Shown here: one piece after another, positions 5,601-46,570 of the stretch
How positions within the stretch are numbered: the stretch's first letter is position 1
How the letters are laid out: the number at the start of each line of letters is the position of its first letter
NCBI RefSeq assembly: GCF_011044495.1
Contig: NZ_CP049143.1
Coordinates: forward strand, 5,518,001 to 5,582,000
Reading direction: 5' to 3'
Length of the DNA stretch: 64,000 nt
DNA from: Roseimicrobium sp. ORNL1
Lineage (GTDB): Bacteria; Verrucomicrobiota; Verrucomicrobiia; Verrucomicrobiales; Verrucomicrobiaceae
The notes under the pieces: model-generated
The model's input: only the letters and a program-made list of their open reading frames with translations
Told to the model about the DNA's origin: nothing
Databases searched by the model: none
Position numbers and translations under genes: made by a program

Positions 5601-8600
5601 CCGGCGAGCGCACCTTCTCCATCCAGAGCAAGTTTGAAAACGCCGCCTCCTGGTCAGTGCACGTGGTCGGCTCGATGCGCGGTGAGCGTACGGAAACCGC
5701 CTTCGCCCACACCAAGTGGGAAGACGTGAAGCCGAAGGACCTGCCTGCGCAGGATCTCAGCGGATTCTACCAGCACATGAGCGACATGGGCCTTCGCTAC
5801 GGCGAGGAGTTCCGTGGCGTGAAGGAACTCGCCGCCGCCGGTGGCGTGTCCCATGGCAAGGTGGCCCTCACCGAGGAGTCCGCCAAGCGCGCTGGCGAAT
5901 ACCAGCTCCACCCCGTCCTCATGGACGCCGCCCTGCACGTATTCTCCGCAGGCGCGAAGACGGTGGAAAGCCGCAAGGCCAAGCTCAAGCTCCCGGTGCG
6001 CTTCCAGCGCATCCTTTTCCTCCGCTCGCCCGGCGCCTCCAGCCAGGTCCGCGCCAGCGTGACGGGCTTCAACGACGACTACCTCGAAGGCGAACTCGGC
6101 CTCTACGATGAAGCAGGCCAACCCTGCGTGCTCGTGGACGGCTTCCGCGCCATCGCTGTGGCCGGCGCCCGCCGCTCCGGCACCCCTGGTGGCCAGCGCG
6201 ACCTTGTTTATCAGGTCGCCTGGGAACGCACCAATCCCTCCAGCGCTGAGCCGAGCACTTCAGGTGCCCCGCTTCCGCTGGTACAGCTTCAGAAGGCCGC
6301 AGGCGCCGCGCTTGACCAGGTCGTCGAAGCACGTGGCAAGAAGAAGCTTGAAGAAGCACTCGCTGCTGGTGACGAACTCGCCGCCGCGAACCTCGCCCGT
6401 GGTCTCCAGAGCATGGGTGTGAAGAGCGCCATCGACGCCAAGAAACTGAAAATCGACGAGGCACTCATGCCTGTCTTCGGCGCCCTGATGACGGGCCTGG
6501 AGCGGCGCGGCCTCATCCAGAAGGAAGGCGCGATCTACAAGACCACGCCGCTCTTCAAGAAGGCTGCCAGCAACGCAACGCCCATCCTTCGCAAGTACAT
6601 CGAGAACAACCCCGGTCACCTCTCGGAAGGCCTGATCAACCACGCGACGTGTGCCGAACTCGGCCCCATCCTCCGTGGTGAGAAGGAAGCCGTGCAGGTG
6701 CTCTTCTCCGGCGCAGGTGCAGAACACCTCGACCAGTTCTACGGTGACGGCCTCTACACCAGCCAGTGGCTCGCCGCCATCGCAGCAGCCCTTCAGGAAG
6801 CCTCCAACGCCCTTCCCGAAGGCCGTGGCCTGCGCATCCTGGAAATCGGTGCCGGTACCGGCGGTCTCGCCTCCTACCTGCTCCCGCTCCTTGAGCGCGG
6901 TCTGCACACCTACACCTTCACGGACATCTCCGCGGGCTTCTTCCCCGGAGCCATGCAGAAGCTGGCCGGATTCCCCGAAGTGGAGTGCAAGATCTTCGAC
7001 CTCGAAAAGTCCCCTGCCGAGCAGGGTCTCGACGTCGGCAGCTACGACTTCGTCATCGGCACGAACTGCGTGCACGCCGTGAGCGATGTCACCAACTCCC
7101 TGCGCCATGTGCATGACCTGCTCGCCCCTGGCGGCAGCCTCATCTTCATGGACACGGGCTCCCCGATGCTGTGGACCGAGTCTACTTTCGGTCTCACGAG
7201 CGGCTGGTGGAGATTCGCCGACCGCGAACTTCGCCCCGAGCAGCCGCTCATCGAGCGCGCCCAGTGGGAGAAGGTCATCAAGTCCGCCGGCTACGCCGAA
7301 ACCGCCTCCCTCGCGGGCCTCACCGGTCCGCGTGGTGGTGAAGGCCAGATCCTCCTCTTCGGCCGCAAGGCTTCCGAGAAGGCCGCTGCCCCCACGACCG
7401 AAGCGCCCGCCGAAGAAGCTACTCTGGAGTCCTCCTGGCTGCTCTACGCCGACAAGGGTGGCTTCGCTGAGAAGCTCGCCACGAAGCTCCGCGAAGGCGG
7501 TGCCCGCGTGCGTCTCGCCTACAAGGGCGACAGCTACAGCGCCGATGGTGACAAGTTCACCCTCCGTGCGGAAGCCGGTGAAGACTGGAAGACCCTTCTC
7601 GAAACCGTCACGAAGGACACCGCGCCTGAGCGCAGCGTGTACTTCTGGACGCTCGATGAACCCGCCAAGCCCAGCAATGCCGACGAAGTCATCGCCGGGA
7701 CCGATGCGCTGCTGCACCTCTCCCATGCGGAAGATGCCGTGCGCCCTGCCGTGAAGAGCCGTTTCGACCTCGTGACCCGCGGCGCCCAGCCGATCGGTCG
7801 CGACAACGCCGCCACCACCGTGGTGCAGGCTCCCCTCATCGGCATGGTACGTGTGTTCAACAACGAACACCCGGACATCACCTGCAAGGCCATCGACCTC
7901 CCGACCGTCGCCTCCGACGCGGATGTGGACCTTCTTATCAGCGAACTGAAGCGTACCGATGTGGAGCGCGAAGTCGCCTTCCGTGGCGAAGCCCGCTACG
8001 TGCAGCGCCTCGATCGTGGCCGCCCTGTCAAAGAGCAGTGGTTGCAGAAGACCGTCCCGCTGCGTCTTGAGTCCCGCGAACGCGGTCACCTCGACACGCT
8101 GCGCTTCACGCCGTTTGAAAACCCGCCCTGCGAAGCAGACCAGGTGGTCATCGACACTCGTGCCGCCGGCATGAACTTCCGTGACGTGCTCAAGGCACTC
8201 GCCCTCTATCCGGGTGAAGCTCCGGATGCCCGCATCTTCGGTGACGAAGTGGGCGGCATCATCACCCAGGTGGGTGAGAACGTGAAGCACCTGAAGGTGG
8301 GCGACCGCGCGTATGGTCTGGCCGTATTCGGCCTGTCCACGCAGACGCTGGCCCGCGGCTGCGACGTGCTGCCGATTCCTGCAGGTCTCTCCTTCGAAGA
8401 AGCGGCAACCATCCCGGTGGTCTTCATGACCTCCTGGCACTCACTGAAGAACGTGGCCCGCATGCGCAAGGGTGAGACCATCCTGGTCCACGCTGGCGCT
8501 GGTGGCGTCGGCATGGCGGCGATTCAGATCGCGCACCACCTCGGTTGCAAGGTCATCGCCACCGCCGGTAGTGCCTCCAAGCGCGCGCTGCTCGAAACAA

Positions 8601-10324
8601 TGGGCGTGGCCCACGTCATCGACTCCCGTCGTGGCGACTTCGTGGATGCGGTGATGAACCTCACCAACCGCCGTGGTGTCGACGTCGTGATCAACGCTCT
8701 CGCGGCTGAAGCCATCCCGATGGGCATGGCCTGCCTTGCGGAGTTCGGTCGCTTCATCGAAATCGGCAAGCGCGACATCTATCAGAACTCGCGCATCCCG
8801 CTGTGGCCGCTGCGCCGCAACGCGTCCTTCCACGTCGTGGCCATGGACGCTGTGTTCTCCGGCGACGGTGAACTTGCCCGTCAGCTCCTCGGTGAGGTGA
8901 ACAAGCTCGTCGAAAAGGGCGCGCTGCATCCCCTTCCCTTCCGCTCCTTCCCCGCATGCCGCGTGGACGCCGCCTTCCGCCAGATGGCGCAGGGCAAGCA
9001 CATCGGCAAGGTGGTGGTTTCCTTCCCCGAAGCCTTTGTACCGCGCCGTGGTGAAGCCCCTGTGCCCGCCTTCGACGTGAAGTCGAACGGCAGCTACGTC
9101 ATTACCGGAGCCTTCGGTGGCTTCGGCAAGGTGCTCGCGAACTGGCTCGTGCAAGCCGGTGCCCGCCACCTCACGCTCAGCAGCCGCAGCGGCATCAAGT
9201 CGCCGGGTGCACAGGAGTTCGTGGATGACCTCACCGCCCGTGGTGTGACGGTCAAAGCCATCGCCGCAGACGTGGGCTCGCCCGCGGATGTGCAGCGCCT
9301 CATCAGCGAAAGCCATTCCGAAGAAACTCCCATCAAGGGTGTGTTCCACCTCGCGATGGTCATCGACGACGCCCCGCTCGCCGCGCTTACCCGCGAGCGC
9401 ATGCAGTCCGTGCTGACGCCCAAGGCGTTCGGCGGCTGGCTGCTGCACGAGGCGACCGCGAAGATGGACCTCGATGCCTTTGTGATGTTCTCCTCCGTGT
9501 CGAGCATCTTCGGCAACCCCGCGCAGGCCAACTACGCGGCCGCCAATGCCTTCCTCGACTCCCTCGCCCATCATCGCCGCTCGCTCGGTCTTCCCGCACT
9601 CACCATCAACTGGGGTGTGCTGGGTGGCGAAGGCTACGTGGCCCGCAATGAGAAGGTCGCTGAGTTCCTGGCCCGCCAGGGTACAGCTGCCCTCACTCCG
9701 GGTGAAGTGGTCACTCTTCTCGAGTCCTTCCTCGTGGCAGGTTCCGCCCAGGGCGTGGCCATCCGCGTGGATTGGAACAAGTGGCGTCAATCCTTCCGCA
9801 ACATGCAGGAGAACCCGCTGCTTGAGCGCATCTTTGCCTCCGGCCTTGAAGGTGGTGAATCCAGCAGCGGTGGCAGCGACTGGCGTCTCAAGATCGAATC
9901 CGCCTCCGCGGACGAGAAAGAGGGCGTCATCGGCGAAGCCGTTCGTGACGTGGTGGGTGGTGTGCTTCGCGTGAAGCCCGACACCCTGCGCAACGACCAG
10001 CCGCTCACGGACCTCGGCCTTGACTCGCTCATGGGCGTGGAAATCGAGAACTCGCTGGAAAGCGCCATCGGTGTGGCCCTTCCGCCCACCAGCCTCATGC
10101 GTGCACGTACCATCGGCCAGATCGTCTCCCTCATCGCAGAACGCGTGGGTGGGGCCAAGGCCGCCGGTGCTCCGGCCGCTGCAGCAGCACCCGCTGCTGA
10201 GCCCGTGGCCGCGCCTGTGGAAGATGTGGACCTGGATGCCATCTCGGATGACGACCTTGACCGGTTGCTCGGAGATGACGATGACACCGCGGAAGCCACC
10301 ACCGCCGCGAAGCCATCCGCCTAA
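2630..10324 (+). CDS. Type I polyketide synthase, single highly reducing module KS-AT-DH-cMT-ER-KR-ACP
   Basis: This 2564-residue enzyme carries every domain of a highly reducing iterative synthase. KS: Cys177 (DTACSS), His312 (EAHGTGT), His352 (NLGH). AT: Ser635 in GHSVG, with PFHH suggesting malonyl-CoA choice. DH: His933, with HxxxSxxxxP replacing HxxxGxxxxP, and Asp1099 in MDAALH. C-methyltransferase: SAM loop EIGAGTGG at 1405-1412. ER: GAGGVG at 1956-1961. KR: TGAFGGFG at 2159-2166, Ser2289, Tyr2302, Asn2306, with an IDD motif near the B-type LDD. ACP: Ser2466 in GLDSL. No thioesterase or reductase is present. The tail is an Ala/Pro linker then an acidic segment rich in Asp, possibly a docking tail for the next gene product. 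It is first of three co-directional genes. The product is inferred to be a saturated or partly reduced methyl-branched chain. No phosphopantetheinyl transferase is seen in the window. Confidence 0.95.
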   Translation: MTKEGIAIIGVGCRFPGKVDDVESYWKLLAEGREAVVEVPADRWNADRYYDEEPGLVGKSIAKRGGFIDGLDQYDPQFFGISPREAPYIDPQQRLLLETAWEAIEDAGIVLDLEKGTDIAVYMGVSHNDYQIIQGTPWDSAGISPHSPTGSAHSIAANRISYSLNLLGPSVAMDTACSSALTAVHAACEHIWTNRGDVAMAGGVTIMVTPGGFIGFSQAGMLSPDGHCKAFAAEANGFVRGEGAGVVLMKRLSQAIKDGDPIHAVVIGTSLNQDGHTNGISLPSPEAQARLVRDACKDAGVDPKNIGFVEAHGTGTAVGDPIEATALANALCVDRPADQPLPIGSVKTNLGHLETAAGVAGLVKALLVLKHRQIPASLHFENPSTHIDFEALKLRVPTSMEAFPAPADGPRMVGVNSFGFGGANAHVILAEAPHTTQREYLEVPEGRSWPVTISARSEESLRATAERLGAWLTSKANANGSSPVLPDLTYTLGARRNHHQYRATVVANSINDLIEELNGFATGTPGPKLQSVFTPRPETAPRVGFVLSGQGPQWWGMGRELMKYEPVFRQMMERCDAAMRPWARFGLLEELAKSESDSQVMRTEVGQPAIFAMQVSLCALWKSWGVEPAAIVGHSVGEIAAACVAGIFSVEDGARIIVQRARFMEECAKGDGTMLAVGMTEEDARALIARHDRTVTIAAFNGPKSLTLAGNAASLTKMMNELEEQGVFARLVKVDHPFHHPLMQPASEALEKALAELKPLPDTVPFFSTVTGDRCAGDSCDATHWGKGIRQSVRFAPAVDAMADFGVDVWLEISSHPALARNIQECLGARNIKAPVLSSVRREKEHETILDTVTGLHRAAVELDFAAMTPSRRQLSLPSYAWDKARWWSESPDWRDGRLMSGGRGMLDIRLPRATPTWVARLDNRHMAYLKDHKVESHVIFPAAGFIELILEAGAQYFEGRPFVVEDFEIRKPLILPDSTAGLQIEITYETGERTFSIQSKFENAASWSVHVVGSMRGERTETAFAHTKWEDVKPKDLPAQDLSGFYQHMSDMGLRYGEEFRGVKELAAAGGVSHGKVALTEESAKRAGEYQLHPVLMDAALHVFSAGAKTVESRKAKLKLPVRFQRILFLRSPGASSQVRASVTGFNDDYLEGELGLYDEAGQPCVLVDGFRAIAVAGARRSGTPGGQRDLVYQVAWERTNPSSAEPSTSGAPLPLVQLQKAAGAALDQVVEARGKKKLEEALAAGDELAAANLARGLQSMGVKSAIDAKKLKIDEALMPVFGALMTGLERRGLIQKEGAIYKTTPLFKKAASNATPILRKYIENNPGHLSEGLINHATCAELGPILRGEKEAVQVLFSGAGAEHLDQFYGDGLYTSQWLAAIAAALQEASNALPEGRGLRILEIGAGTGGLASYLLPLLERGLHTYTFTDISAGFFPGAMQKLAGFPEVECKIFDLEKSPAEQGLDVGSYDFVIGTNCVHAVSDVTNSLRHVHDLLAPGGSLIFMDTGSPMLWTESTFGLTSGWWRFADRELRPEQPLIERAQWEKVIKSAGYAETASLAGLTGPRGGEGQILLFGRKASEKAAAPTTEAPAEEATLESSWLLYADKGGFAEKLATKLREGGARVRLAYKGDSYSADGDKFTLRAEAGEDWKTLLETVTKDTAPERSVYFWTLDEPAKPSNADEVIAGTDALLHLSHAEDAVRPAVKSRFDLVTRGAQPIGRDNAATTVVQAPLIGMVRVFNNEHPDITCKAIDLPTVASDADVDLLISELKRTDVEREVAFRGEARYVQRLDRGRPVKEQWLQKTVPLRLESRERGHLDTLRFTPFENPPCEADQVVIDTRAAGMNFRDVLKALALYPGEAPDARIFGDEVGGIITQVGENVKHLKVGDRAYGLAVFGLSTQTLARGCDVLPIPAGLSFEEAATIPVVFMTSWHSLKNVARMRKGETILVHAGAGGVGMAAIQIAHHLGCKVIATAGSASKRALLETMGVAHVIDSRRGDFVDAVMNLTNRRGVDVVINALAAEAIPMGMACLAEFGRFIEIGKRDIYQNSRIPLWPLRRNASFHVVAMDAVFSGDGELARQLLGEVNKLVEKGALHPLPFRSFPACRVDAAFRQMAQGKHIGKVVVSFPEAFVPRRGEAPVPAFDVKSNGSYVITGAFGGFGKVLANWLVQAGARHLTLSSRSGIKSPGAQEFVDDLTARGVTVKAIAADVGSPADVQRLISESHSEETPIKGVFHLAMVIDDAPLAALTRERMQSVLTPKAFGGWLLHEATAKMDLDAFVMFSSVSSIFGNPAQANYAAANAFLDSLAHHRRSLGLPALTINWGVLGGEGYVARNEKVAEFLARQGTAALTPGEVVTLLESFLVAGSAQGVAIRVDWNKWRQSFRNMQENPLLERIFASGLEGGESSSGGSDWRLKIESASADEKEGVIGEAVRDVVGGVLRVKPDTLRNDQPLTDLGLDSLMGVEIENSLESAIGVALPPTSLMRARTIGQIVSLIAERVGGAKAAGAPAAAAAPAAEPVAAPVEDVDLDAISDDDLDRLLGDDDDTAEATTAAKPSA

Positions 10325-38921: not shown

Positions 38922-39104
38922 GACGGCAGGGTGGCTGATAGCGCGGGTGGTGATGAGCGGGAGCGACCGGGATTCTACGGAGAAAGACACGGCATTTTCC
39001 ACTACGATTTACCAGCATCGACAGGTGTTGCCTTCCAGGGGCGAGCACATTTTCAGGTCTCGCCGGCACATGGCGGCTTGCGGCGGGGGCAACTTTCCGG
39101 TTTG

Positions 39105-40874
39105 ATGAAGCGCAGCATGCCGGGAGGTCTGGACCAGGTCGTGAAAACATGGGAGAAGGTGCGTGCCTGGTGTGAAAGCGCCCGGCAGACCCTGCGAAAG
39201 TCCGTGTTTCTGCGTCACTGGTGGCGGGAACTCGTCGTGGTGGCAGCACTACTCCTCACGATCGCGGCTCCCTTTATGCTGAAGCCGGCCCAGAGCGCCG
39301 CGCCCTCGCGTTACGATCGGCGTCTGGTGGTCGTCACTCCGCATCATGAAAAGATCCGCCAGGAGTTCGGCCAGGCCTTTGCCAGAAAATGGAAGGAGCG
39401 CACCGGAGAAACGCTCTACATCGACTGGCGGGTGGCGGGCACAGGTGACATTGCACTCATGCTGCGCTCGGATTTTGCCGGCGCCTTCGAGTACTACTGG
39501 ACACACATCCTGACCAAACCCTGGTCCCAACGGGTGGCGGGCGCATTTGGCAACAGCAAGGTGGATCTCTCGGCCCCGACGACCGAAGCCAACGACGTGG
39601 AACAGGAAGCCCGCCGTGCGTTTCTGGACTCCGACGTAGGCGTGGGCATCGACGTCTTTTTTGGCGGCGGCGCGTTTGATTTCGAAGCGCAGACCAAAGC
39701 TGGCTTCCTCGTCAGCACCGACACTTCCAAGAAGCACGGGCTCGATGCGATCTTCGCAAGGCACCCGGACTGGTTCGCACCCGAAGTCATGCCGCAGAAT
39801 GTCAGCGGAGAACCTTTCTACGACAAGGGTCACCGCTGGGTGGGCGCCTGCCTTTCCACCATGGGGATTGTGTACAACCGGGATGTCATCCAGCGGCTCA
39901 GTCTTGAGAAGGAACCCGCTCAATGGGCCGACCTCGCCGATCCGAAATATCGGGGCCAGATCGCCCTCGCCGATCCCAACAAGAGCGGCACGGTGACCAA
40001 GTCGTTCGATCAACTTGTCCAGCAGCAAATGCAGATCGCCATTGATGAAATCCGGCAGAAGCCCGGCGGGCTGATGAAGGAGAAGGACATCGTGAACGCC
40101 GGGATCCGCATCGGCTGGACACGCGGGCTGCAACTCATCCAGCGCATCTCGGCGAATGCACGATACTTCACGGACAATGCCACGAAGATCCCGCTGGAGG
40201 TCTCCCAAGGCGATGCCGCCGCCGGCATGTGCATTGATTTCTACGGCTACTCCTTTGAAGAGATGGTGCGCAAGCCGGATGGAAGTGCGCGCGTCGGGTT
40301 TGTGACTCCGGTGGGCGGCACCAGTGTCAGTGTGGATCCCATTGGCATGCTGCGCGGCGCGCCCGAGCCGGAAGTGGCGACGGCCTTCATGGAATTCGTG
40401 CTCAGCGAGGAAGGGCAGCGTCTTTGGAACTTCGCCCCCGGCAGCCCTGGCGGGCCGCAGCACTACGCCCTGCGACGCCTGCCAGCACGCAAGGATTTCT
40501 ACACCGAACAGAACCGCCCCCGCATGACGGATTCCCAAGCGGAACCGTATGAAGATGCGAAGGCGTTCACCTACTATCCCGAGCGCACGGGCCAGCTCTT
40601 CAACGTGCTGCGCTTCCTGGTGAAGACCATGTGCGTGGAGAATCACGATGAGCAACGCCAGGCCTGGGAGATGATCACCCGGGCGAATCTTCCGCAACGC
40701 TCGACGGAAATCTTCAGCGACATGAGCCTGGTGAACTATGACGCCGCCATGGAACTCGCCGCCATGCTGGCCAAGAAGAACAAGACCCAGGAGTTGCGCA
40801 AGGCCCGTGAACTGACCATGCACTTCCGCTCCCAGTACCGCAGGGCTCATGATCTCGCGGTCGGTGGCGAGTAA
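39105..40874 (+). CDS. Extracellular solute-binding protein of an iron/thiamine-type ABC transporter, membrane-anchored and long
   Basis: From the ATG at 39105 the product is 589 residues, about 200 longer than usual for the family. A 40-residue cytoplasmic lead precedes a hydrophobic helix (WRELVVVAALLLTIAAPFML) that probably anchors rather than being cleaved. The binding fold has RLVVVTPHHEKIRQEFGQAF, VDVFFGGG, GIVYNRDV, GDAAAGMCIDFYG and a SVDPIGMLRGAPEPE closing motif, as in Fe(III)/AfuA-like proteins. The C-terminal 150 residues are extra. The permease follows after 38 bases. The ligand (iron, phosphonate or sugar phosphate) is uncertain. Confidence 0.85.
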   Translation: MKRSMPGGLDQVVKTWEKVRAWCESARQTLRKSVFLRHWWRELVVVAALLLTIAAPFMLKPAQSAAPSRYDRRLVVVTPHHEKIRQEFGQAFARKWKERTGETLYIDWRVAGTGDIALMLRSDFAGAFEYYWTHILTKPWSQRVAGAFGNSKVDLSAPTTEANDVEQEARRAFLDSDVGVGIDVFFGGGAFDFEAQTKAGFLVSTDTSKKHGLDAIFARHPDWFAPEVMPQNVSGEPFYDKGHRWVGACLSTMGIVYNRDVIQRLSLEKEPAQWADLADPKYRGQIALADPNKSGTVTKSFDQLVQQQMQIAIDEIRQKPGGLMKEKDIVNAGIRIGWTRGLQLIQRISANARYFTDNATKIPLEVSQGDAAAGMCIDFYGYSFEEMVRKPDGSARVGFVTPVGGTSVSVDPIGMLRGAPEPEVATAFMEFVLSEEGQRLWNFAPGSPGGPQHYALRRLPARKDFYTEQNRPRMTDSQAEPYEDAKAFTYYPERTGQLFNVLRFLVKTMCVENHDEQRQAWEMITRANLPQRSTEIFSDMSLVNYDAAMELAAMLAKKNKTQELRKARELTMHFRSQYRRAHDLAVGGE

Positions 40875-40912
40875 AGCAATCGCAGATCGCCATATCCCCC
40901 TCACTCATCCCG

Positions 40913-42607
40913 ATGTCCCGCACCTTCGCCTTCACCATCTTCTGCGGCGTGATCGCGTTCTTCGCGTTCTTCTTTGTGCTGCCGATCTGGGAAACGGTGA
41001 AAGCGGCGTTCATCTCGGACAAGGAGACCTTCACGCTCCAATACGTGGGCACCATCTTTGCCAACCCGGTATACCGCGAGGGATTGGTGAACTCTTTGAT
41101 CATGGCCGTGGGTACCACTGCGGGATGCCTGGTCCTCTCACTGCCGCTGGCGCTGCTGTATTCCAAGTTCGAATTCCCCGGCCGCTCCGTGCTGAATGCG
41201 CTCATGCTTCTGCCCATGATCCTGCCTCCCTTTGTGGGAGCCATCGGCGTGCGCGCCATGCTGGGGCAGGCGGGAGCGCTGAACAGCCTGCTCATCAAGC
41301 TGGGCTTCATGGATGCACAACATCCCGCGGACTGGCTGGGCCAGGGACAGATGACAGGCATCATCATCATGAATGTCCTGCATCTCTTCCCCATCCTTTA
41401 TCTCAACATCGTCGCCGCGCTTTCGAACCTCGATCCTGCCCTGGAAGAAGCGGCGGCCAATCTGGGCTGTCCTCCACAGATGCGATTCTGGCGCATCACC
41501 CTGCCGCTCATCATGCCGGGCATCTTCGCGGGCGGCACCATTGTTTTCATCTGGGCCTTCACCGAGCTCGGCGTGCCTCTCATCTTCGACTTCCGCCGCG
41601 TGACCAGCGTGCAAATCTTCGATGAGATCAAGGACCTGAGCGACAATCCCCTGCCCTACGCGCTGGTGGTGATCATGCTGCTCTTCTCCATGGCGCTCTA
41701 TCTCCTGAGCAAGCTGGTCTTTGAACGCGGTGGCGTGATGGGTGGCGGAAGAGCCACCACGGGAAGGGTGATGAAACAGCTCCCGCTAGGCTGGGCGATC
41801 GCCTGTAGCGCGGTGTTTGCCCTGTGCATCGCCGTGTCCGTAGTCCCGCATGCCGGTGTGCTGCTGCTCTCAGTATCCACCGACTGGTACCAATCCGTGC
41901 TGCCGGAATCGCTGACTTTGAAACATTTCAGCGAAGCACTGGGTCATGAACTCACCCTGCCCTCCATCGCGAACAGCCTGAAATACTCATCGCTTGCCGT
42001 GATCCTCGATCTGCTGCTGGGCATCGGCATCGCGTATGTCACGGTGCGCACGCGAATCTGGGGCCGGCATCTGCTGGACGCGGTGGCCATGCTGCCCCTG
42101 GCCGTTCCCGGGCTGGTGCTCGCCTTCGGTTACCTCGCCATGGCCCGCGAGGGCAGATCCCTGAACTGGCTGATGCTTGGTGAGAACCCACTGCTGCTTC
42201 TCGTGATCGCCTATGCCGTGCGCCGCCTGCCGTATGTCGTGCGCAGCGCGAGTGCCGGATTCCAACAAATCAGTCCTGAGCTGGAATATGCCGCGCAGAA
42301 CCTGGGCGCCCCTCCCCTGCGGGCTCTCGCGCGCGTGACGCTCCCACTCATCATGCCCAACTTGATTGCCGGCGGCCTGCTCGCCTTCGCCTTTGCCATG
42401 CTGGAAGTGTCTGACTCCATGATCCTCGCGCAGCAATCCGTGCACTACCCCATCACCAAGGCCATCTACTCTCTCGTCGCTTCTCTTGGGAATGGCCCCT
42501 ACATCGCCTCCGCCTTGGGCGTGTGGGCCATGGTGTTTCTGGGAATCACGCTGCTGGGCGCGGGGTTGCTGCTCGGGAGGAAATTGGGAGCGCTGTTCCG
42601 TGCATGA
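40913..42607 (+). CDS. ABC transporter permease with two fused transmembrane domains (AfuB/SfuB-like)
   Basis: The 564-residue protein contains two BPD_transp_1 domains. Each has the EAA loop for the ATPase: EEAAANLGCPPQMRFWRITLPLIMPG in the first half and EYAAQNLGAPPLRALARVTLPLIMPN in the second. Such fused permeases serve Fe(III) uptake and related systems together with a binding protein and an ATPase. The binding protein is the preceding gene, but no ATPase gene follows. It must therefore be supplied from elsewhere. Confidence 0.92.
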   Translation: MSRTFAFTIFCGVIAFFAFFFVLPIWETVKAAFISDKETFTLQYVGTIFANPVYREGLVNSLIMAVGTTAGCLVLSLPLALLYSKFEFPGRSVLNALMLLPMILPPFVGAIGVRAMLGQAGALNSLLIKLGFMDAQHPADWLGQGQMTGIIIMNVLHLFPILYLNIVAALSNLDPALEEAAANLGCPPQMRFWRITLPLIMPGIFAGGTIVFIWAFTELGVPLIFDFRRVTSVQIFDEIKDLSDNPLPYALVVIMLLFSMALYLLSKLVFERGGVMGGGRATTGRVMKQLPLGWAIACSAVFALCIAVSVVPHAGVLLLSVSTDWYQSVLPESLTLKHFSEALGHELTLPSIANSLKYSSLAVILDLLLGIGIAYVTVRTRIWGRHLLDAVAMLPLAVPGLVLAFGYLAMAREGRSLNWLMLGENPLLLLVIAYAVRRLPYVVRSASAGFQQISPELEYAAQNLGAPPLRALARVTLPLIMPNLIAGGLLAFAFAMLEVSDSMILAQQSVHYPITKAIYSLVASLGNGPYIASALGVWAMVFLGITLLGAGLLLGRKLGALFRA

Positions 42608-43272: not shown

Positions 43273-43347
43273 GCACCCATAGTTCAACGGATAGAACAGC
43301 GGTTTCCGGAACCACCGATCCAGGTTCGATTCCTGGTGGGTGCACCA
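43273..43347 (+). tRNA. tRNA-Arg (anticodon CCG)
   Basis: A complete cloverleaf is visible: acceptor GCACCCA with TGGGTGC, D-arm GTTC/GAAC, anticodon loop TTCCGGA, T-arm CCAGG/CCTGG, and CCA encoded at the 3' end. The anticodon stem (GCGGT with ACCAC) has one C-A mismatch. The anticodon reads CGG codons. Confidence 0.92.
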
Positions 43348-43510
43348 CTCATTGAGCAACGAATTGCCTGAGTGGCTGCCTATTGGCAAGAGCATCGCCC
43401 AAAAGTTCTCATGTGAGCACAGGAGGCGCAGATAGGACTTAGGTCCATGAGGTTGGAAAACCAGTTGCACGGGGTAAATATATCCGTAAAAACTTCAATC
43501 CCCCATGCAT

Positions 43511-43522
43511 TTCTACGTAGAA
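43511..43522. other. 12-bp perfect palindrome upstream of the VTC gene
   Basis: TTCTACGTAGAA is a perfect palindrome, about 93-104 bases before the VTC start and within a 267-base gap that otherwise shows nothing clear. It could be a binding site of a dimeric regulator. No factor is known. Confidence 0.4.
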
Positions 43523-43614
43523 ACTACGCCTGTTTCCTCAGATGAGGTGTCCTGTGACCAGCCGCGACTGCTTGAAGATTGCGGGTGTTATCAATCCACG
43601 CGCGGAGTACAGCT

Positions 43615-44340
43615 TTGAGCGTTCTCCCACTCCGCAACACGGCATCAGCGACGGACGAACTGGAACTCAAATTCCACGTGCCGCAGCAGATGACCGCGCC
43701 GCTCCGGCAGTGGCTGGGCATGACCTTGAAGCCGCACCGGCACCATGCGGACACGACGGTGTGCTCCATCTACTTTGATACTCCTGAGGGCTTGTCGTTC
43801 CTGGAGAAGGCGGCCAGCGACTATCGAAAGACCAAGTACCGCGTGCGCTGGTACGCTGATGCAGCGGGGCGGCCTCTGGCGACGCCCGCGTTCATCGAGA
43901 TTAAAGAGAAGCACGGCGCCACGCGGCGAAAGTTCCGCCAGCCGCTGCCCATCTCAGGCGCTGACCTCGCGCGCATGTCCTTTCGCGATCCCTCGCTCAC
44001 CGGTCTGTTCCAGCGGCACTTGCCTGACGGCGCCGAGAGTCCACCAGCCAGCCTGCGCCCGGTGCTGGAGCTTCGCTACCTGCGGCGGCGTTATCACCAT
44101 CCCATCTTTCCGGACAGCTTCTGCCTGGATGAAAACATCCGCTGCATGCGCACCCATCCCGGGGTGGCGCCATCCGGCACCGGGCATGTGTTGCCGATGG
44201 CGGTGTTTGAACAGAAGGGGCCATCACGCGAGGCGGTGCCGCTGCTGCAGGCGCTGCCACGATTCGGAGCCCGGCGCGCCGCGCTCTCCAAGTACTTCCT
44301 GATCATGCTGCAGCTTCTTCCTCATTCCCGATATTCATGA
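43615..44340 (+). CDS. VTC domain protein (CYTH-like, polyphosphate polymerase family)
   Basis: The TTG at 43615, preceded by GGAG at a good spacing, gives 241 residues. A TTG at 43579 or a GTG at 43585 would extend it with no obvious domain. The VTC fold shows ELELKFHVP at the start, YFDTPEGLSFLEK, KTKYRVRWYAD, FIEIKEKHGATRRKFRQPL and AVFEQKG near the end. The basic and acidic residues of the tunnel (K/R/E) are kept. In eukaryotes VTC makes polyphosphate. In bacteria such proteins occur with DUF4956 and CotH genes with unknown function. The stop overlaps the next start (ATGA). Confidence 0.85.
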   Translation: MSVLPLRNTASATDELELKFHVPQQMTAPLRQWLGMTLKPHRHHADTTVCSIYFDTPEGLSFLEKAASDYRKTKYRVRWYADAAGRPLATPAFIEIKEKHGATRRKFRQPLPISGADLARMSFRDPSLTGLFQRHLPDGAESPPASLRPVLELRYLRRRYHHPIFPDSFCLDENIRCMRTHPGVAPSGTGHVLPMAVFEQKGPSREAVPLLQALPRFGARRAALSKYFLIMLQLLPHSRYS

Positions 44341-45053
44341 CCATTTCTGATCTCCAGGAGGCCGCCCAAACCATCATGTTCGGTGGTGACACGCGTCGGG
44401 TGGCGGACCTCGGCCTTTTCACCCTCAGTCTTTCTCTCGGAGCTGCGTTGCTTTCATCGCTCGTCCTCTCGTGGGCTTACAGCGCCTTTTACGGCGCACG
44501 TGCCACGGGGAGTAATGTGCACCGCTCCTTTCCGCTCATCAGCATCGCGGTCACTGCGATTTTCATCTGCGTGCAGTTCTCGCTTCCGCTCTCGCTGGGC
44601 CTGCTGGGATCGCTGTCCATTGTGCGATTCCGCACTCCCATCAAGGAACCGGAGGAGATCGGCTTCATCATGTTGGTGATCGCCTCGTCCCTGTGTTGTG
44701 CCTCGTTTAATGTGGCGTTCCTCATCGCCATCCTCGGCGTCGCCTTTGTGGCGCTGATGGTGCTGCGCTGGAGTCCGGCCTTTCTGAGTCGCCGTGCTGG
44801 GTCGGGCACGCTGGTGATCCGTTGCACCGGAGAGCAGTACCGCGATGCCCTGCCCTCGATGATTTCGCTCATCGAGGCGCATCTGAGCAAGCCAAGCTTC
44901 GACAGCCTCTCCACCGCAGAGGATGCGTGCGTGCTGACGTGGTCATTTCAGAAGGTCTGTCTGGTGAAGTCCGCAGAGCTGGAGCGGAAGCTTCAGGAGA
45001 CGCTGCCCCAGGCGTCGGTGGGTGTGTACTACAACAATCACGCCAACGCCTGA
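44337..45053 (+). CDS. DUF4956 membrane protein
   Basis: The 238-residue protein overlaps the VTC gene by four bases. It has three or four hydrophobic helices in the first 140 residues, with a conserved stretch LGLLGSLSIVRFRTPIKEPEEIGFIMLV that is diagnostic of DUF4956. The C-terminal region is a cytoplasmic ferredoxin-like or coiled domain (LVIRCTGEQYRDALPSMISLIE). In known clusters it is paired with VTC and CotH, so it probably acts with them at the inner membrane. Confidence 0.87.
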   Translation: MTISDLQEAAQTIMFGGDTRRVADLGLFTLSLSLGAALLSSLVLSWAYSAFYGARATGSNVHRSFPLISIAVTAIFICVQFSLPLSLGLLGSLSIVRFRTPIKEPEEIGFIMLVIASSLCCASFNVAFLIAILGVAFVALMVLRWSPAFLSRRAGSGTLVIRCTGEQYRDALPSMISLIEAHLSKPSFDSLSTAEDACVLTWSFQKVCLVKSAELERKLQETLPQASVGVYYNNHANA

Positions 45054-45067
45054 GTTCACCATTCGCG

Positions 45068-46570
45068 ATGCGCCAGCTTCCTTCACCCTCACGGCAAAAG
45101 AAACAATCCCTGCTCATCGGCGGCTGCGCTCTTGCCTTGGGAGCTCTCGCATGGGGCACCCAGTACTGGCGCACGCCGGGACAGACGGGCTACGAACTCC
45201 GCGCACGTCCCGAGTTGATTCTTGGTCTGGACAAGGTCTCTGCGCGTCACGCGGCGATGCTGCGTGAAGGCATGCTCCATATGAGCAACACCTTCGCAAG
45301 TCCCGAAGAACTGGCCTCCGACTCTCCTGCCGCTGTGGCTTTATTCGGAAAGGCGTGTCCCGCGCCGGATGCCCAGCTCCTTGCAAAGGATATCCCACCC
45401 TCCACCGCATTGCTGCCGACGCAGGGAGAGATTGCCCCGGGCATTACGGTCATTTCCATCGTCTGCCGCAGCGGGGATCTCTACCACGAGGAATCGGGCA
45501 TCCTCGCCAACAAAGAGGAAGCGGGACGGGAATGGGAGCGACCTGCCTGGCTCACGGCACAATTGGGTGGTCGTGTGCTCGTAGAGAGTCCCGTGGGCCT
45601 GCGTGTGCATGGCGGCTTCAATCGCAAGACACCGCAGACCAGCTTCCGCCTGGTGTTCCGCAGCAGCCACGGTGGGCATGACGCTGCGCCGGCGGGCTTG
45701 TTCTTTGGTGGCGATGCTCCGGCATCTTCCGAGTTCGTGCTTACGAATGCCTCGCACCCGAGCCGCTTCAAGGGAGCACTGGCCACAGAGATTGCCTCGC
45801 TCACGGGCTGCCACACCTCACAGTGCACGCCTGCAGTGGTCTACTTGAATGGCACACGTGTTCCCGCGCCCTACTTCATCTACCAGCGCCAGTCGGATGA
45901 ATTTGTGAAGCAGCGCTTCGGTCTCGCGGATGTGGACTGGGTGCGCCTGAAGTCACGACGCCCCAACGAGAACGAGAACTACATCGTCTGGCGGAAATGG
46001 ATCCGCCGTGAGCGCAATCCCATCTCGATGGCCGAGGAAGCAGCCCGCTTTGATTTGGAAGAACTCAGCGCCTGGGTGCTGGCCATGACCTTCACCGCGA
46101 CGAGCGACAACAATCAGGGCGGATACTTCCGCGACCGCGCATCACCCGATGCCGTGTGGCGCACGCTCACCTGGGACATGGACCAGTCCTTCAACAACAC
46201 CACACAAGTTGTCGAAGGAAAGCGCATCAACTTCTGCGAGCAACCCTTCGAAGCCATCATCGGAGATCGCTCCCGGTTGTTCTTCCGTCTCATCGAAGGC
46301 TCTTCAGAATATCGCGACTACTTCCGGCAATTCGTGCGCCAGAAGCTTGAGACCTGCCTGACCGATGAGAAGCTCATGCCGCTGATGGATCGCTATGTCA
46401 GTATCGCACGGATGCAGCCCGACAAAGCTCCACAACTGCTCGATGAACTGGCGCAGTGCCGGGAATTCCTGGCCACGCGACGGAACACCTATCTGCAATA
46501 CGTAGAGCAACGCCTACGCGAGGCCGAGGAGTTTCAACGCAAGCGCATGGGACAAATCGCGGAGAACTGA
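45068..46570 (+). CDS. CotH kinase family protein, membrane-anchored
   Basis: From the ATG at 45068 the product is 500 residues with one N-terminal helix (SLLIGGCALALGALAWG), so the domain faces the periplasm or outside. CotH motifs: VHGGFNRKTPQTSFRLVFR, SDEFVKQRFGLADVDWVRLKSRRPNE, and the metal-binding TSDNNQGGYFRDR...WDMDQSFNN. CotH enzymes phosphorylate or otherwise modify surface proteins. It is the third gene of the VTC-DUF4956-CotH unit, after a 14-base gap. Confidence 0.9.
   Translation: MRQLPSPSRQKKQSLLIGGCALALGALAWGTQYWRTPGQTGYELRARPELILGLDKVSARHAAMLREGMLHMSNTFASPEELASDSPAAVALFGKACPAPDAQLLAKDIPPSTALLPTQGEIAPGITVISIVCRSGDLYHEESGILANKEEAGREWERPAWLTAQLGGRVLVESPVGLRVHGGFNRKTPQTSFRLVFRSSHGGHDAAPAGLFFGGDAPASSEFVLTNASHPSRFKGALATEIASLTGCHTSQCTPAVVYLNGTRVPAPYFIYQRQSDEFVKQRFGLADVDWVRLKSRRPNENENYIVWRKWIRRERNPISMAEEAARFDLEELSAWVLAMTFTATSDNNQGGYFRDRASPDAVWRTLTWDMDQSFNNTTQVVEGKRINFCEQPFEAIIGDRSRLFFRLIEGSSEYRDYFRQFVRQKLETCLTDEKLMPLMDRYVSIARMQPDKAPQLLDELAQCREFLATRRNTYLQYVEQRLREAEEFQRKRMGQIAEN

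Follow-up and report, generated by a model that had tools for sequence, protein, structure and literature searches.

A conserved VTC-DUF4956-CotH gene unit in Roseimicrobium sp. ORNL1 and its possible role in polyphosphate use at the cell envelope

Introduction

Why should a bacterium encode a polyphosphate-polymerase-like protein, a membrane protein and a probably exported kinase-like protein in one tight gene cluster? We examined this question in a 64,000-nucleotide stretch of the genome of Roseimicrobium sp. ORNL1 (hereafter the window), a member of the Verrucomicrobiota. The window spans positions 5518001-5582000 of the 7.96-Mb single-contig genome and carries adjoining genes for proteins of the VTC, DUF4956 and CotH families (the cassette; Table 1). 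ATP is generally considered absent beyond the cytoplasmic membrane, and a secreted kinase-like protein is for this reason a puzzle, to which a co-encoded polymerase and membrane protein offer a concrete answer. Our analysis indicates that the three genes almost certainly act as one functional unit. Our preferred reading, to which we give a probability of roughly 45%, is an envelope phosphate-polymer module in which polyphosphate would be made inside the cell, passed out and used by CotH at the surface.

The trio itself is already in print for Gram-positive Pel loci. The genes for CotH, a polyphosphate polymerase, DUF4956 and DUF4832 adjoin Gram-positive pel operons (PMC7112168), and the pelDEADAFG accessory genes cotH-PPP-DUF4956(-DUF4832), SIR_1592-1594 in S. 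intermedius, place the same three families side by side (PMC7112168, PMC12345266). In this accessory system CotH is described as secreted, and DUF4956 as having an MgtC-type membrane part and an ACT domain. According to the 2025 paper (PMC12345266, cited here, like the other papers, from part of its text), no such three-gene synteny turned up away from the Pel locus. What our study adds is the widespread occurrence of the trio away from Pel, a clade of CotH proteins with a changed catalytic loop, a lineage with HlyD and OEP genes, an invariant arginine in DUF4956, and the retention of the matched VTC active-site residues apart from one tunnel arginine lost in the window's clade.

Conservation of the gene unit

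The three genes lie on the same strand. The DUF4956 start overlaps the VTC stop by 4 bp (ATGA), and the CotH ATG at 45068 follows the DUF4956 stop by 14 bases. An earlier note on this DNA had named the three families, described the genes as overlapping or near-adjacent and called the association a recurring bacterial neighbourhood. The names stand, with all three Pfam matches over their cut-offs, and so does the arrangement; an NCBIfam scan of the cassette proteins gave no meaningful match. To measure recurrence, we counted a gene as beside another when it lay on the same strand within 1.5 kb (loci read carry L numbers and genomes G numbers). In a phylum sample of 240 genomes, DUF4956 was present in 48, VTC in 48 and CotH in 62, and up to 20 kb were read around all 57 DUF4956 matches. 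VTC adjoins DUF4956 in 53 of these 57 entries (L079 is perhaps one gene counted in two pieces), CotH adjoins it in 23, and the whole trio is present in 22; VTC is lacking beside DUF4956 in L031, which has CotH-DUF4956 only, and in L041, L049 and L080. Among 79 loci from named genomes, with 81 DUF4956 entries, VTC is beside DUF4956 in 79 and CotH in 72, a CotH share that leans upward and is no unbiased rate, as these loci were fetched with a CotH-type DUF4956 alignment. The order VTC-DUF4956-CotH is kept in 67 of the 81, and some of the remainder are cut by contig ends. Cassettes with the window's kind of CotH, as placed on the VTC tree, span nine named NCBI phyla, many as metagenome-assembled genomes: Verrucomicrobiota, Acidobacteriota, Thermodesulfobacteriota, Planctomycetota, Myxococcota, Lentisphaerota, Kiritimatiellota, Spirochaetota and Pseudomonadota. 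The recurring neighbourhood is thus borne out. The closest DUF4956 proteins among named records are those of Verrucomicrobium sp. BvORR034 (79% identity) and BvORR106 (78%), followed by Verrucomicrobiaceae-type metagenome-assembled genomes.

By position the trio is independent of Pel, although some genomes that carry it have Pel as well. The window genome has no PelG match, and three of the 240 phylum genomes have one, two of them over the cut-off. Only one of the three (G214) has VTC-DUF4956, on another contig than PelG and without CotH beside it, so that the genome of none of the 22 phylum trio entries has a PelG match. Searches by tblastn with the PelG proteins of the five named-locus genomes that have one found none in 135 regions, comprising the 79 named loci, 55 phylum regions and the window. 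Elsewhere in the genomes behind the named loci, PelG is present in 5 of 38, including three near relatives of the window (L089, L090 and L091); for these three and L104 it lies on contigs that differ in length from the cassette's, and it lies about 1 Mb away on the chromosome for L113. A positional tie of the cassette to Pel was rejected on these grounds, and the presence of the trio in regions without PelG bears on the published statement, as it stands in the available text, that the genes do not co-occur outside Pel loci (PMC12345266). Nor is any single polysaccharide gene tied to the cassette: in the 95 of 146 neighbour references that were scanned, the commonest families reach 5/95 (among the 25 commonest of 151), with glycosyltransferase families GT2 in 5/95 and GT1 in 3/95.

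Several loci depart from the standard layout. In L031 (G237, 7732-10000), CotH adjoins a full-length DUF4956 in the absence of VTC, and this CotH lacks the D-x-x-Q loop described below. In L041, VTC lies about 2.5 kb from DUF4956, with a 941-aa beta-helix protein between them (6077-10280) whose start looks CotH-like by eye. Desulfobulbaceae-type cassettes have an extra gene of about 290-330 aa between DUF4956 and CotH (L102 8679-9545; L103 1943-2806; L106 5642-6520; L108 8673-9563; L118 8503-9501); the one in L108 has no Pfam match, matches the DUF4956 hidden Markov model weakly (20 bits) and ends in a segment that resembles the DUF4956 tail by eye. The same position in L125 (4091-5476) holds an FkbM methyltransferase whose N-terminal half is LicD-like by eye, hinting at phospho-sugar chemistry. 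An apparent VTC-DUF4956 fusion in L159 (6726-8570, a 615-aa frame) was rejected, the VTC tail being in another frame; the frameshift is either a sequencing or assembly error or a sign of a decaying copy.

The VTC protein

The VTC family profile matches yeast Vtc4 (3g3q) at E 7.6e-18, followed by Vtc2 and Vtc3 as the next closest solved relatives, and an inorganic triphosphatase comes far lower (E 0.2). A single-sequence search of the PDB with the window VTC returned nothing; the profile search succeeded. Positions are numbered here after Vtc4, where all numbers other than R264, R266 and E426, including R373, are those we take to apply. All 123 VTC relatives have the same residue at each of the positions matching R264, R266, K281, K294 and R361, and the residues matching K200, E426 and K458 are kept in 121 of 123, the others having gaps or single different residues. 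The window protein has all eight. R264/R266/E426 changes impair the yeast enzyme, in which making the chain is coupled to its transfer across the membrane, in a channel whose lining includes basic residues (PMC9911596). The R373 position holds arginine in 110 of the 123 relatives. In the window's clade its six rows read S (the window), T, T, A, A and G, and the arginine is also lost in some Kiritimatiellota and Spirochaetota rows. Because several lineages that keep the other residues have lost this arginine, we do not count it as defining for the family, but its replacement means that the window's own enzyme may be altered.

The window VTC is a 253-aa open frame with a VTC domain only, and has neither an SPX domain nor fused membrane helices. 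From the residues retained, we consider it probable that members of the family at large make polyphosphate, and likely, though somewhat less surely so, that this very gene product does. It would then be a second polyphosphate system of the cell, since the genome also encodes a polyphosphate kinase (PF02503, at G000:C1:2419838-2420389).

The CotH kinase-like protein

A profile of the CotH proteins matches B. cereus CotH (5jd9) at E 7.1e-25, and a single-sequence PDB search with the window protein gave nothing. Both catalytic aspartates (D228 and D251 of B. subtilis CotH) are present in the window. Export-like N-termini are common: 24 of 29 CotHs in the 20-kb loci of the phylum, not all of them within cassettes, have near their start a 19-residue stretch with a mean hydropathy of at least 1.6, a mark that we assumed, usually after basic residues. 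Those under the mark, besides the window, are L038, L061, L032 and L031. Furthermore, modules of lectin-like, LTD, Fn3-like or beta-helix type occur in eight of nine CotHs scanned, mostly of the other CotH kind (L054 and L073 are of the window's kind), and the window CotH has no extra module. CotH thus very probably works outside the cytoplasm, an estimate founded on hydropathy rather than on a signal-peptide predictor, and lowered a little because the N-terminal segment of the window protein is only moderately hydrophobic.

The catalytic loop sets most cassette CotHs apart. Among 95 cassette CotHs, 93 were aligned, four of these partial, with duplicates kept in the motif counts. We assigned to the D-x-x-Q class proteins with Q three residues after the aspartate, then G, E or N. 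This class holds 54 cassette CotHs (51 with G next), and another loop is found in 35; it holds none of 19 control CotHs from elsewhere in the phylum, three of which lie near a DUF4956 gene (L194, L197 and L199). Asparagine two residues before the aspartate is found in 5 of the 54 against 16 of the 19 controls. Asparagine five residues after it, the place of N171 in protein kinase A, appears in none of the D-x-x-Q group among the residues shown, and the window has glycine there; as aligned, this asparagine does not define the family, since it is present in just 4 of the 19 controls and 12 of the 35 cassettes with another loop. The D-x-x-Q motif is not a strictly private mark of cassettes. Ten further CotHs in the loci include two with Q (the second CotH of L126, with G, and L040, with N), and three of 22 readable lower-scoring CotHs (L222, L225 and L237) have D-W-P-Q-N. 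D-x-x-Q-G appears the better mark, and the clade itself rests on the tree and a gap in profile scores.

The CotH tree has 111 rows, and a single set of 53, supported at 100% by the Shimodaira-Hasegawa-like approximate likelihood ratio test (SH-aLRT), contains all 50 of those with D-x-x-Q. Its remaining three members are two cassette rows in which E replaces Q (L132 and L135) and the second CotH of the L126 locus. A profile search for the window's kind of CotH in the 240 phylum genomes, scoring at most nine candidates per genome, gave seven places at 211 bits or more, followed by a drop to 150. Six of the seven are cassettes, and the seventh lies in G168, which has VTC-DUF4956 on another contig; it has Glu for Asp. 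Within the phylum sample, therefore, the clade goes with VTC-DUF4956. Taken by alignment and tree, most of the sampled cassette CotHs, the window's included, appear to belong to a single clade whose catalytic loop is altered to D-x-x-Q-G.

Trees in this study leave out VTC pieces shorter than 150 aa and CotH pieces shorter than 200 aa. Seven loci that share a contig with another locus (L039, L042, L054, L059, L061, L066 and L075) are left out of the trees and the neighbour list and kept in the motif counts.

The DUF4956 membrane protein

An AlphaFold2 model of DUF4956 (mean predicted local distance difference test score, pLDDT, 86.5) has helices followed by a domain at residues 154-237. This tail matches ACT and ferredoxin-like folds, with MgtC C-terminal domains among many matches: 2lqj ranks second (E 1.2e-3), and 7qa5 ranks 46th (Z 8.9, root-mean-square deviation 3.1, 87 aligned residues), with many unrelated ACT or ferredoxin-like folds scoring equally well or better. 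By hhalign, a broad DUF4956 alignment matches seven MgtC proteins with 94% probability over 143 columns; a narrow alignment gives nothing (0.2%). The MgtC Pfam model matches the DUF4956 proteins of two genomes, that of G004 with 36.9 bits, which exceeds its cut-off, and that of G050 with 22.5 bits, which does not. In the window protein DUF4956 alone was reported, with no MgtC match at E 0.01. DUF4956 thus appears to be a distant MgtC relative. The MgtC-plus-ACT reading is already in print (PMC12345266), and our comparison confirms it.

The most conserved spot is an RFR motif: among 56 aligned proteins, R97 is kept in 56, F98 and R99 in 55 each, and K or R at position 103 in 50. A DUF4956 profile search of the PDB returned nothing. 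On balance, we lean slightly towards DUF4956 as a membrane conduit or coupling partner of VTC.

A sister lineage with HlyD and TolC-type genes

A cluster of HlyD-type genes in the phylum (24 genes at 23 loci) goes with DUF4956. In 22 of the 24 the gene directly follows DUF4956, starting -129 to +13 bases from its end, as judged by open frame, and of 23 scanned, 21 match HlyD_3 and 19 HlyD_D23. Two further, TolC-like clusters total 14 genes, 12 of which match OEP. In the VTC tree of 123 rows, the 23 HlyD-type rows and five rows without a seen partner fall in one set (SH-aLRT 98%). Most CotH-type rows fall in another set of 86 (95%), and four lie elsewhere; rows with both an HlyD gene and a CotH nearby (L070 and L071) were labelled HlyD. 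Partner type changes 23 times on this tree, compared with 63.4 times with shuffled labels, which together with the two sets indicates that the third partner largely follows the VTC lineage. An HlyD adaptor in place of CotH, often with a TolC-type channel, suggests export. Such a version would amount to a dedicated polyphosphate export route from two-membrane cells; judging by its listings, we found no such route in the open literature.

Discussion

Our preferred reading joins these observations into one path. On the cytoplasmic side, VTC would join the terminal phosphates of ATP into polyphosphate, as its retained active-site residues suggest. DUF4956 would be its membrane partner, most likely helping the negatively charged chain across by means of the invariant arginine in its membrane part. 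In the sister lineage, the encoded HlyD adaptor and, often, a TolC-type channel would carry the product outside. In the CotH lineage, to which the window belongs, CotH on the far side may phosphorylate or decorate glycans or proteins of the surface, and the exported polymer would be the direct or indirect source of the phosphate. In favour of this reading we also count that loss of the DUF4956 or the CotH homologue in S. intermedius reduced aggregation and altered the amount of Pel (PMC12345266). The export half of this path draws on the HlyD/OEP lineage and the yeast VTC analogy, and the donor half would follow by logic; that polyphosphate is CotH's own phosphate donor seems to us unlikely. 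Equally doubtful is the furthest-reaching version, an ATP-independent extracytoplasmic kinase system in which VTC spends ATP inside, DUF4956 passes the chain, the CotH clade with the rebuilt loop uses it as donor and the sister lineage ships the polymer through HlyD and a TolC-type channel. A joint role in polyphosphate and protein phosphorylation at the envelope, as put forward in the earlier note, is plausible in light of the export-like CotH N-termini (weak in the window) and the HlyD/OEP version of the locus, and stays a predicted role. The earlier note had also held that missing VTC catalytic residues together with an unconserved neighbourhood would speak against its proposal; we found the neighbourhood conserved and the matched residues kept, apart from the serine at the one tunnel position in the window.

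The cassette can be compared with several known systems. In S. intermedius, VTC lies between DUF4956 and CotH, judging by locus tags, whereas DUF4956 is in the middle here, and the window cassette is not contiguous with pelDEADAFG. With the yeast VTC complex (Vtc1/Vtc3/Vtc4) it shares a VTC catalytic domain with matching catalytic residues; unlike that complex, the window has a stand-alone domain, a serine in the tunnel and DUF4956 as the would-be membrane partner. Lacking the SPX domain and the fused helices, the window VTC may work like the eukaryotic complex but is not a member of it. The CotH resembles the spore-coat kinase of B. subtilis and B. cereus in its Pfam domain, both catalytic aspartates and a tryptophan, but is probably exported, has the D-x-x-Q-G loop and has Val at the Tyr142 position. 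DUF4956 aligns with the MgtC family over 143 columns at 94% probability and shares an ACT-like tail with it, and differs in its RFR motif and in the missing Pfam match of the window protein. A further comparison is NELoc-2 of C. perfringens (CP4_0460-0465), with two VTC genes, two membrane proteins (226 and 222 aa) and a CotH (PMC2879425). Its membrane proteins are labelled tubulin/FtsZ in that paper and are DUF4956 by our reading. Unlike the window locus, NELoc-2 is from a Firmicute and is doubled, with a resolvase in between.

Several observations weigh against polymer export and its use by CotH. No CotH stands beside DUF4956 in 34 of the 57 phylum entries. The N-terminus of the window CotH has a basic start, but its best 19-residue mean is 1.35, and its VTC lacks one basic tunnel residue, with serine at the R373 position. 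The membrane part of DUF4956 alone matched no solved structure above noise (E at least 1.4, Z at most 5.6), so a channel is neither shown nor excluded. A relation of DUF4956 to the yeast VTC membrane domain was considered and dropped, as the structure and profile searches made returned no such match. The tryptophan with which B. cereus CotH stacks against adenine is present in 53 of the 54 D-x-x-Q cassettes, in keeping with ATP binding. We found no report of activity for a bacterial VTC member in the open literature, and an S. intermedius mutant lacking VTC (SIR_1593) still aggregated, with no change reported in the available part of that paper (PMC12345266), a result difficult to reconcile with CotH depending on the polymer.

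The S. intermedius data also bear on a different account, in which the cassette is a regulatory module for surface polysaccharide: DUF4956 would act in an MgtC-like manner on ATP and phosphate balance, VTC would make or sense an intracellular polyphosphate signal, CotH would be an exported modifier or scaffold, and no polymer would leave the cell. The MgtC relationship and ACT-like tail of DUF4956 fit it. So do the mutants, in which deletion of the DUF4956 homologue gave more Pel and deletion of CotH less, both with less aggregation in sputum medium, and the loss of VTC brought no reported change (PMC12345266). Glycosyltransferases are among the commonest neighbours, and three of the five cassette genomes with PelG elsewhere are near relatives of the window. 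Yet PelG itself is missing from the window genome and from every region read and is rare in the phylum, the neighbours include no constant polysaccharide gene, and the HlyD and OEP genes of the sister lineage speak for export. We therefore regard this account as rather unlikely.

Two further alternatives were weighed. At least in the window's clade, VTC might be a phosphohydrolase of the triphosphate tunnel metalloenzyme (TTM) fold, or a subunit that binds polyphosphate without catalysis, given that all six clade rows have lost an arginine that most relatives keep and that the fold typically gives phosphatases (PMC8233210). We think this quite unlikely, because the window keeps the other matched catalytic positions, among them the ones at which changes impair yeast Vtc4, and the nearest solved relatives are Vtc proteins rather than triphosphatases. 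Similarly, CotH might be an ordinary ATP-using kinase acting in the cytoplasm or during export, with VTC-DUF4956 only storing or balancing phosphate. B. subtilis CotH uses ATP (PMC7821199), and Tyr142 and Trp245 sandwich the adenine in CotH (PMC12189002). In the window, with columns counted by hand on the 5jd9 alignment, this Trp and both aspartates are kept, and a Trp stands just before the Val at the Tyr142 position; the modest hydrophobicity of its N-terminus also agrees. Against this stand the export-like N-termini and extracellular-type modules of its relatives, a catalytic loop that has changed throughout the clade, and the tightness of the gene order; an ATP-using CotH of this kind seems to us quite unlikely.

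Genomic context

Coordinates of the cassette and of the features discussed are collected in Table 1. A possible VTC start is the TTG at 43615, which has GGAG seven bases upstream by eye; the frame is open from a TTG at 43579.

Table 1. Positions within the window of the cassette genes and selected features
Feature	Position	Strand	Support
VTC-domain (TTM) protein, predicted polyphosphate polymerase, stand-alone catalytic domain	43615..44340	+	Pfam PF09359, E 8.6e-14, 52.1 bits (cut-off 23)
DUF4956 membrane protein, helices then ACT-like C-terminal domain	44337..45053	+	Pfam PF16316, E 9.2e-13, 48.7 bits (cut-off 30.6)
CotH-family kinase-like protein, probable N-terminal membrane/signal segment	45068..46570	+	Pfam PF08757, E 6.1e-20, 72.4 bits (cut-off 23.8)
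Ser codon in VTC at yeast R373 position	44116..44118	+	Arg in 110/123 VTC relatives
Arg-Phe-Arg, residues 97-99, most conserved DUF4956 spot	44625..44633	+	Alignment, n=56
D-N-N-Q of altered CotH catalytic loop, D347 to Q350	46106..46117	+	D-x-x-Q in 54/89 readable cassette CotHs
14-bp perfect palindrome TTTCTACGTAGAAA, upstream, not part of the unit	43510..43523	.	Judged chance

The earlier note had pointed to a 12-bp palindrome upstream of the cassette. The palindrome is real and measures 14 bp, but an operator role was rejected. Ten Markov-shuffled copies of the window have on average 22.2 perfect palindromes of 12 bp and 8.9 of 14 bp; the window itself has 17 and 3, a frequency at or below chance. 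In five relatives, the 350 bp preceding the cassette lack the core of the palindrome, CTACGTAG, and one of the five has a different 12-bp palindrome there. A tRNA-Arg gene (43273-43347) lies just upstream of the cassette; a tie of the cassette to a tRNA or an island was rejected, as the loci of the five relatives have no tRNA. Upstream of the tRNA gene, positions 38931-42607 encode the solute-binding protein and two-domain permease of an ABC importer, of iron(III) type by our reading.

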